Positions 15,855 through 18,406 of a stretch of 20,552 nt of DNA are shown piece by piece (positions within the stretch are counted from its first letter, which is position 1; every line of letters begins with the position of its first letter). The translations under genes and the position numbers were made by a program. Under the pieces are notes generated by a model. It did no database searches and was not told the DNA's origin. It saw only the letters and a list, made by a program, of their open reading frames with translations. Source of the stretch: a virus; IMG/VR virus record IMGVR_UViG_3300032829_000044, positions 1-20,552 of that record, one strand, 5' to 3'.

Positions 15855-15896
15855 GATTTTTTGTCTACAAAAAGAAATAAAATAAAGGAAAATACT

Positions 15897-16169
15897 GTGA
15901 ATAAATTCGCAGAATGGATGAAATGCAACGATAAAAAACAACGTGGAGTTGCAGAAAAGTTAGGCATTAGCACCTCAACACTTCATGATATCTTGAGGAA
16001 AAACCAATTGCCTAGCTTGAAAATAGCTTATGAGATTGAAAAATACACTCGTGGAGCTATCACGGTATATGATTGGATTGATCAAGGCAATGCTGAAGAA
16101 GAGAAAGAAAATATCACTAAAAAACCAAAAGCCACTAGTAAAGATAAAGTCAAAAAAATTAAGAAATAA
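15897..16169 (+). CDS. Cro/CI-like helix-turn-helix regulator (90 aa)
   Basis: The GTG at 15897 is selected because AAAGGA lies eight bases upstream; a TTG at 15861 is in frame but has no such site. Residues ~14-40 form the HTH: KKQRGVAEKLGISTSTLHDI then LRKNQLPSLKIAYEIEKYT. This is followed by VYDWI, typical of Cro/YdaS-like small repressors. The last ~25 residues are Lys/Glu-rich and likely disordered. It is divergent from the recombination operon and probably binds the palindrome in between. It could be a lysis-lysogeny switch protein or an antitoxin-type regulator. Confidence 0.8.
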   Translation: MNKFAEWMKCNDKKQRGVAEKLGISTSTLHDILRKNQLPSLKIAYEIEKYTRGAITVYDWIDQGNAEEEKENITKKPKATSKDKVKKIKK

Positions 16170-16310: not shown

Positions 16311-16338
16311 GGGTCACCTAACGCCAATTAGGTAACCC
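16311..16338. repeat. Hairpin GGGT-ACCTAA / TTAGGT-ACCC
   Basis: GGGT-C-ACCTAA, loop CGCCAA, then TTAGGT-A-ACCC: ten pairs with one mismatch. It is dyad-symmetric, so it could be an operator as well as an RNA hairpin. No T-run follows, so a terminator is unlikely. Confidence 0.55.
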
Positions 16339-16831: not shown

Positions 16832-17027
16832 AGAACTTTATTGTATTCTATGTTCTGTTTATGCTAGCTTACTAAACGAAAATGCCTCGACTGGTAATCG
16901 AGGCATATTCAGCGCTTTACGCGAGAGCTACAAAAATGGACATCGAATACCCATCATTGTAGCATTCCACGGAAAAGCACGCAACGCTTTTATTCTTATT
17001 CGCAATCGGGAGTGCTATGTCAGATAG
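16821..17027 (+). CDS. Hypothetical early protein (68 aa)
   Basis: The ORF begins MNNKELYCILCSVYASLLNE and ends with a beta-like IPIIVAFHGKARNAFILIRN. It overlaps both neighbours by 11 bases in the manner of a compact phage operon. There is no membrane segment or recognised motif. It is supported mainly by coupling and by lack of a competing frame. Confidence 0.55.
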   Translation: MNNKELYCILCSVYASLLNENASTGNRGIFSALRESYKNGHRIPIIVAFHGKARNAFILIRNRECYVR

Positions 17028-17886
17028 ATTTATAAAATTTATTCCATCACAAGAAGCATTATATCTTGCGCGAAAGCATCCAAATGCATTCATCCTTCTT
17101 GTTTTTATCGCCGAAAGGGCTCGTCGTGAAAATGGTCATCCTGATGGTTTAACCATCGGGCAATGTCATATTGGTGATTTCAAATCATATGGTCTAACAG
17201 AAAAAGAATATCGAACAGCTAAGAAGATTTTGGTTCAAAGAAACCATATAAAAATCGTTGAAACTTGCCGCTCTAGAAAAAAAGAAAAAGATCATAGTTT
17301 GTTCTTTAATTCGAAAAATTCCGAAAATCGGGCGACCGAAAGGGCGACCAAAGTAACCACTATTGGAACTCTTGTAGAGTTATGTAGTTTAAGCATTTAT
17401 GACATAAATTCAGATACTCGTAACCAACAAAAGGGCGACCGAATCGACGACCGAGGGGCGACCGAAGGGCGACCGAAGGGCGAGGAACAAGAAAGAAAAA
17501 GAAAGAATAAGAAAGAAGAAGAAGAACAAGAATATATTGCTCAGCCCGCTTCGCGTCTTCGCACAAAAGATGATTTATCTTTCGATTTTCAAAAATGGGA
17601 GTTTGTCGGAATTTCCGAAAAAGACTTGTCTGACTGGAAAGTCATGTATCCACACGTAGACTTTCAAGTCGAAATCCTCAAGGCTATCCAATGGCTAAAG
17701 AATAATCCTTCCAAAAGCGGAAAGAAGCTTTGGCGTAAATTCCTCACAGGATGGTTCGCTAGAACAAATGATTCCATTGAGAACAAAAAAGCCTTCAAAA
17801 CTGCTTCTCAGCAGAATCCTATCGATAGAAAAACCAAAAACATGGATGGAACTCCGATAAAGAGTAGAGCAGAGGATTTGTTTTAA
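17017..17886 (+). CDS. Replication initiator, lambda O-like organisation (289 aa)
   Basis: GGGAG lies close before the ATG. Residues 1-95 look like a winged helix (FIPSQEALYLARKHPNAFIL, then GDFKSYGLTEKEYRTAKKIL and VQRNHIKIVETCR), as in phage initiators. Residues ~104-175 are a low-complexity hydrophilic linker encoded by GC-rich iteron-like repeats and a purine-rich tract. Residues ~190-250 form a helical C-terminal domain (ISEKDLSDWKVMYPHVDFQV, WRKFLTGWFARTND), which is the expected place for helicase-loader interaction. The DnaC-like gene follows two bases after its stop. This matches lambda O-P architecture: iterons inside the initiator gene and the loader gene next to it. The assignment is by architecture rather than by residue identity. 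Confidence 0.75.
   Translation: MSDRFIKFIPSQEALYLARKHPNAFILLVFIAERARRENGHPDGLTIGQCHIGDFKSYGLTEKEYRTAKKILVQRNHIKIVETCRSRKKEKDHSLFFNSKNSENRATERATKVTTIGTLVELCSLSIYDINSDTRNQQKGDRIDDRGATEGRPKGEEQERKRKNKKEEEEQEYIAQPASRLRTKDDLSFDFQKWEFVGISEKDLSDWKVMYPHVDFQVEILKAIQWLKNNPSKSGKKLWRKFLTGWFARTNDSIENKKAFKTASQQNPIDRKTKNMDGTPIKSRAEDLF
17330..17531 (+). repeat. Candidate replication origin: GGGCGACCGAA iterons plus purine-rich tract
   Basis: Perfect 11-mers GGGCGACCGAA lie at 17330, 17433, 17456 and 17467. GGGCGACCAAA lies at 17342, a degenerate copy at 17445 and a partial copy at 17478. Spacings are 11-12 bases (about one helical turn) within clusters. The copies are read in all three codon frames (RATE, GDR, GRPK), so conservation is at DNA level. 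A strand-biased A/G tract (17483-17531) follows. The GC-rich iterons stand out in AT-rich DNA. This resembles lambda ori inside gene O. Confidence 0.7.
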
Positions 17887-17887
17887 T

Positions 17888-18406
17888 ATGCCTAAGATGA
17901 GTGAGATAGATAATAAAACACCTGAACAAATGGAAAAAATTCAGGCATTCGCCAGGAATCCAAAGGGATTTCTACTTCTTGCAGGAGCTAACGGAACAGG
18001 AAAAAGTTTCGTTGCAGAAGTTATTTACCAGTTGCATGCTAGGTATAAATTGCCCTACTACGATATGGACGAAGCTTTTTTTATCAATCAAGCTTCATTG
18101 AACGAGCGTTGGTTACGCGAGAAATCAGAGGGAAATTCGTTTGAACTATGCGATAGACTTCAAAAGACTAAGCTGTTGGTTTTAGATGATCTAGGTACAA
18201 GAAGCCCTTCAGATGCATTTGGAGAGTTCTTGTATGCAATAATAGATTATCGATGGCATTCTAGAGACACTCTTGGAACTATTATTACAACCAATATGAC
18301 AGGAAAAGTTACTAGAGAGAAGTTTGGAGATGCGATTTTAAGTAGAATTGCCTCTGGAATAAACATTCGTTTTGACGGAGAAGATAGAAGAATTATTGAC
18401 TTTTAG
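17888..18406 (+). CDS. DnaC-like AAA+ helicase loader (172 aa)
   Basis: Walker A is GANGTGKS (33-40), Walker B LLVLDD (96-101), sensor I TTN (134-136) and an arginine-finger-like R153 in AILSRI. The short length fits a phage DnaC/IstB-type loader with a reduced N-terminal domain. It uses ATP to load the replicative helicase onto opened origin DNA. It follows the initiator by one base after its stop and would act at the iterons in the preceding gene. The ATG is preceded by GAGGATTTG, somewhat distant; the ATG three codons later is an alternative. Confidence 0.9.
   Translation: MPKMSEIDNKTPEQMEKIQAFARNPKGFLLLAGANGTGKSFVAEVIYQLHARYKLPYYDMDEAFFINQASLNERWLREKSEGNSFELCDRLQKTKLLVLDDLGTRSPSDAFGEFLYAIIDYRWHSRDTLGTIITTNMTGKVTREKFGDAILSRIASGINIRFDGEDRRIIDF

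Follow-up and report, generated by a model that had tools for sequence, protein, structure and literature searches.

Origins inside initiator genes

In phage lambda, iterons and a strand-asymmetric purine/AT tract lie within gene O, between the parts encoding the DNA-binding and loader-binding domains, and the loader gene stands next to the initiator gene (PMC5043065, PMC3349717). In-gene direct repeats have been shown to serve as the origin in SPP1 (oriL-gp38) and in the replisome organizer genes of TP901-1 and Tuc2009 (PMC6316719, PMC8965321), and six imprecise 11-bp repeats (TGTCCAACGGA) in gene 18 of phage L (ST64T type) were named as its likely origin (PMC8022706). The plasmid origins of pSK41, pSK1, and pAD1 also place iterons within the initiator gene (PMC3155836); pSK41 belongs to the RepA_N family, where iterons are mostly semi-palindromic and converge on a poly-A tract (PMC7145576).

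The locus described here lies in a viral record of 20,552 bases that was analysed whole and is called the window below. Based on sequence comparison, its repeats are best read as a candidate origin of phage replication that lies within the gene for its own initiator, in the manner of lambda ori-O-P (probability roughly 0.88). An earlier note on this DNA had already invoked lambda logic, and the parallel holds for the layout, since both have iterons and a purine tract inside the initiator gene and a loader gene, DnaC-like in the window, directly beside it. The repeats themselves differ. Lambda iterons are 18 bp long with inverted symmetry and form one cluster with 20- to 24-bp steps, whereas the window has direct 11- to 12-bp steps in two clusters, and the lambda O gene, unlike the window, lacks a period of 11. 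A profile search with the window family found no match to lambda O, and thus no homologous O N-domain. SPP1, TP901-1, and Tuc2009 resemble the window in carrying direct repeats in the initiator gene, although the main period of TP901-1 rep is 15 rather than 11. The initiator genes of pSK41, pSK1, and pAD1 likewise contain iterons, and the window protein has no RepA_N match in Pfam, NCBIfam, or PHROG. (In the lambda record, L172 [J02459.1], the O and P product labels all read cII, an annotation slip.)

Repeats in the window

The initiator gene and its repeats are as follows.

17017-17886, + strand: O-type initiator gene, 289 aa (open reading frame with an AlphaFold model; relatives match O-like and DnaD-like PHROGs)
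17330-17352, + strand: iteron cluster 1, copies at 17330-17340 (exact GGGCGACCGAA) and 17342-17352 (1 mismatch), step 12; wing-loop DNA, residues about 105-112, between wing strands 78-82 and 118-122 of the model
17354-17362, + strand: degenerate copy TAACCACTA, at a lattice place with good copies in relatives
17421-17429, + strand: degenerate copy TAACCAACA, 67 bp after 17354, the family-wide gap
17433-17486, + strand: iteron cluster 2 in linker-coding DNA, exact GGGCGACCGAA copies at 17433, 17456, and 17467, a degenerate copy at 17445 (3 mismatches) and, by inspection of the sequence, a partial copy GGGCGAGGA from 17478

Beyond these repeats, the whole record holds no copy of GGGCGACCGAA with at most 1 mismatch. 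The copies are spaced by 12 in cluster 1 and by 12, 11, 11, and (11) in cluster 2, and their codon phases (1,1 | 2,2,1,0) use all three frames. The iteron is 73% GC, compared to a GC fraction of 0.378 for the window. On each of these points the earlier description, of GC-rich 11-mers in an AT-rich genome, at 11- to 12-base steps in two clusters and in every codon phase, was reproduced, with the repeats found again at the same positions. Shuffles that kept the protein and codon usage of the window gene did not produce such a pattern: synonymous-codon shuffling of the whole gene yielded at most 3 repeat copies versus the 5 observed (n = 300), and the period-11 count was 17 versus a maximum of 7 (n = 500).

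A lattice shared by homologues

Protein searches recovered 35 distinct full-length relatives, mostly from uncultured viral contigs, with Vibrio phage 1.177.O and two Photobacterium genomes as named exceptions. A genome search for prophage copies found Photobacterium alone (1 of 369 genomes of its class), and a plasmid collection contained no match. Nearly all relatives have direct repeats at the same place in the gene, with a sequence that differs by phage (TAACGACCG, CGACGACCG, CGACGAATG, CGACAACTG, CAACCACC, GTAACGGA, and GACGGACAA among them). Aligning these related phages, a check proposed in the earlier note, therefore showed iterons that are kept while the linker peptide is altered, and the linker consensus NDR..NDR..TT.QR is itself the iteron translated in three frames.

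Measured from the YDIN codons, the repeats fall at −56, −44, +23, +35, +46, +57, and sometimes +68, a conserved spacing of 12 | 67 | 12, 11, 11. Across all genes, similarity between wing-encoded and linker-encoded DNA is highest at a gap of 67 bp, and secondary maxima at 79, 90-91, and 101-102 outline an 11- to 12-bp lattice. The window fits this lattice through its two decayed inner copies at 17354 and 17421, which occupy the next inward places of the two clusters. In 24 of the 35 genes the lattice score exceeded all 100 synonymous shuffles; the other 11 did not surpass every shuffle, and repeats were weak in two relatives (L034 and L042). Because the structured wing is itself constant in length, it may help to hold the gap at 67 bp, which leaves helical phasing as a likely explanation that falls short of proof.

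Copies within one phage resemble each other much more closely than expected. Their mean distance was 3.46 mismatches out of 10, compared to 5.33 when phage labels were permuted per lattice site (0 of 2,000 permutations), and in a closer clade the values were 2.20 and 3.63. Copies that change together are what would be expected if one phage-specific reader must match all of them.

Two duplications were seen among the relatives. In L026:2-1066, a tandem duplication inside the initiator takes in the wing hairpin, the YDIN motif, and the iteron cluster, so that protein segment and origin module were duplicated as one. In the Photobacterium-type relatives (L032, L035, L036, L040, and L044), the lattice is apparently repeated, with 67-bp pairs at 245/312 and 392/459, which suggests a doubled origin module.

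A purine element at a fixed distance

Cluster 2 runs into a further element.

17478-17536, + strand: purine tract, presumed unwinding element; family motif ACAAGAAAGAATAAGAAAGAA, window variant starting at 17487

The presence of a purine tract next to the repeats had been noted before, and the adjoining stretch proved to carry a conserved motif. Starting at 17475-17482, it shows the strongest purine bias in the window at lengths of 40, 50, and 60 bases, and the best 40 bp within it (17498) fall in the least stable 1.2% of the window. In about a dozen relatives, motif ACAAGAAAGAATAAGAAAGAA lies directly 3' of the last iteron in two reading frames, at +66 from the YDIN codons with four linker iterons, at +77 with five, and at +89 with six lattice places, the window included. 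An extra iteron moves the frame, so that the same purine DNA is translated as TRKNKKE in one phage group and as QERIRKNKKE in the other. A motif held at a fixed distance but read in differing frames argues for selection on DNA. Gene by gene, the purine excess of the tract over synonymous expectation is small, and in the AlphaFold model of the window protein the tract codes for a lysine-rich helix.

Because cluster 2 and the purine tract fall in a disordered linker, the repeats could in principle be a mere reflection of low-complexity, repetitive protein sequence. Steps of 11 bp, however, pass through all three frames and encode different peptides, the repeats are absent from protein-preserving shuffles, and the copies evolve in concert. 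The synonymous shuffles and the purine motif read in two frames led us to reject a protein-repeat explanation, which we consider extremely improbable, and they bear out the earlier proposal that selection acts on the DNA.

The initiator and its neighbors

The downstream part of the initiator gene and the gene that follows it complete the locus.

17572-17814, + strand: C-terminal domain, presumed to contact the loader (modelled with high confidence; type varies among relatives)
17888-18406, + strand: DnaC-like helicase loader, 172 aa (phrog_50, 1.8e-21; phrog_3277, 2.2e-18; IstB_IS21, 6.9e-09)

AlphaFold predicts a 289-aa protein with a winged-helix N-domain, a disordered linker (133-158), and a C-terminal domain; both domains are modelled confidently, and the wing loop (residues about 83-117) has no confident structure. 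The protein itself matches nothing in Pfam, PHROG, or NCBIfam, and PDB fold searches with the N-domain returned generic winged helices, none significant (CodY, MarR, and TubR at the top, with CodY best at E = 0.067). A PDB sequence search using the N-domain alignment gave chance matches alone. The relatives, however, match PHROGs named replication initiation O-like, replisome organizer, and DnaD-like helicase loader, and together with the predicted winged helix these matches agree with the gene having been called an initiator. The DnaC-like assignment of the downstream gene stands as well, on its phrog_50 match.

Several unrelated C-domain types occur among the relatives behind the same N-domain and linker. 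In L053, a window-type N-domain with iterons is followed by a C-domain whose identity to the C-domain of lambda O is 40% (E = 1e-21). This O type has a weak match in L007, and the C-domain of the window connects to L053 and L007 via intermediates alone. A DnaC-like gene is nearby in 7 of 10 relatives with the window C-domain type versus 1 of 9 with the next commonest type (one-tailed Fisher test, about 0.015 with relatedness ignored), and in other relatives, L009, L032, and L053 among them, a DnaB-like helicase directly follows the initiator.

This variety would be expected if the repeats mainly served as a recombination joint for exchanging initiator C-domains, but such a role leaves the fixed 12/67/12/11/11 spacing and the concerted change of copies unexplained; as a main function it is exceedingly unlikely, and any exchange there is more likely a by-product. 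Winged helices are also common in regulators, as the CodY, MarR, and TubR matches illustrate, and the repeats might then be operators through which the winged-helix protein regulates its own gene or controls transcription. Against this, they lie more than 300 bp inside the gene, no promoter-like site in our scan overlaps them, and relatives have lambda-O-type C-domains and DnaC or DnaB neighbors, which makes operators improbable. TubR is a winged-helix centromere binder, and its appearance among the structural matches raises the option of a partition site or a copy-number/incompatibility element instead of an origin. The neighbors, however, are replication genes, no ParA-, ParM-, or TubZ-like gene was identified beside the repeats, and a purine element fits melting, leaving partition very improbable.

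At the genome level, cumulative GC skew has a local minimum at 17112, but this coincides with a switch of gene strand, which makes the skew uninformative about the origin. Rfam and tRNA scans found nothing. A strong inverted repeat (GGGTCACCTAACGCCAATTAGGTAACCC) at 16311-16338, within the long intergenic region that precedes the 16553 gene and near an HTH/Cro-like gene (15861-16169), is a candidate operator or terminator.

Period-11 arrays in other phages

Viral contigs were also searched by DNA pattern alone, using four ACGAC cores at 11-bp steps, which matched 114 stretches. In 55 of the 111 loci that could be parsed, the array lay within an open reading frame of at least 180 aa at residues 85-200, the position of the initiator linker, and 38 of these 55 frames formed one cluster by N-terminal similarity. 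Nine of 10 representatives outside the window profile matched replication-initiation, DnaD-like, or primosomal PHROGs and included DUF1376-type and other N-domains; as the ACGAC core was set by the search, the sequence common to these unrelated N-domains should not be over-read.

Other arrays were noted as well. A recurrent 11-bp-step array, ACGACATGAATACGACCACAATACGACCACAATACGACAAAG, occurs on GC-rich contigs outside initiator-like frames (L079, L081, L091, L106, L128, L143, L150, L153, L165, and L168) and forms a second repeat class. In eight GC-rich phage initiators with another N-domain family (L086, L087, L118, L125, L135, L136, L152, and L169), the linkers also contain ACGAC arrays with a step of 11 bp, perhaps by convergence. 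One record of 35.8 kb, L057 (PP511318.1), is filed as Microviridae but has tailed-phage-like genes, including a CI repressor and a replisome organizer, and its filing is probably a taxonomic error.

Among cultured phages, the N-domain of L068, one of those recovered by the DNA pattern, had 131 matches, including HK022, HK542, and SE1 gp18 as well as phages of Staphylococcus, Listeria, Lactobacillus, Klebsiella, and Pseudomonas. In 11 of 11 O/DnaD-like genes from cultured phages, 11 bp was the leading or joint-leading repeat period, weakly so in Shewanella 3/49, and the genes compared also had an AT-rich segment downstream of the repeats. The profile of the window N-domain has a remote relationship to the HK022 O/phage L-type gp18 set (hhalign 92%, E = 5.2e-7, 103 columns). 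Period 11 in cultured phages and this remote relationship place the window with the phage L/HK022-O kind. Like the window, phage L types have 11-bp repeats within the initiator gene and related N-domain profiles, and the SE1 gp18 gene shows a dominant period of 11 followed by an AT-rich stretch. They differ in that the iteron sequence of phage L gene 18 is another one, both SE1 clusters follow the winged-helix domain while one window cluster lies in wing-coding DNA, and the next gene is DnaB-like in the SE1/phage L type and DnaC-like in the window.

The suggestion of a likely new origin type could not be upheld. In-gene direct-repeat origins are established in lambda, SPP1 oriL, TP901-1, and Tuc2009, and the six repeats of phage L gene 18 had already been named a likely origin (PMC8022706); this paper and the period-11 survey led us to reject the claim. 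Judged from open-access papers, three aspects are new: an initiator branch with no Pfam or PHROG match, an iteron cluster inside wing-coding DNA, and a spacing of repeats and purine element that holds regardless of reading frame. The general 11-bp pattern may have been described earlier outside those papers.

Proposed mechanism and implications

From this arrangement we infer that the initiator binds the window repeats, that the DNA is wrapped and melted there, and that the helicase is then loaded and replication initiated. The winged-helix N-domain of the 289-aa protein would bind the short iterons, and because 11 to 12 bp is slightly more than one helical turn, neighboring proteins would align on the same side of the helix and wrap the DNA; the 67-bp step between wing-encoded and linker-encoded clusters amounts to about six turns. 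Strain from wrapping could open the adjacent A-rich, strand-asymmetric purine tract, and the C-terminal domain may then pass the DnaC-like loader, and thereby the replicative helicase, to the opened strand.

More tentatively, at slightly less than even odds, a single origin grammar may be common to the majority of O-like and DnaD-like phage initiators: 11- to 12-bp iterons on a helical lattice, one of them lying in the codons for the wing of the domain by which they are read, and, at a constant distance after the last copy, a purine opening element that is retained in any reading frame. If so, the palindromic 18-bp iterons of lambda would be the exception. Because iterons vary while the N-domain fold is constant, the set allows asking which residues read which iteron. 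The repeat pattern also offers a sequence-only way of locating replication origins in uncultured phages, and the locus would be a clear example of one DNA stretch that serves as a regulatory site in all three frames and yet codes for protein.
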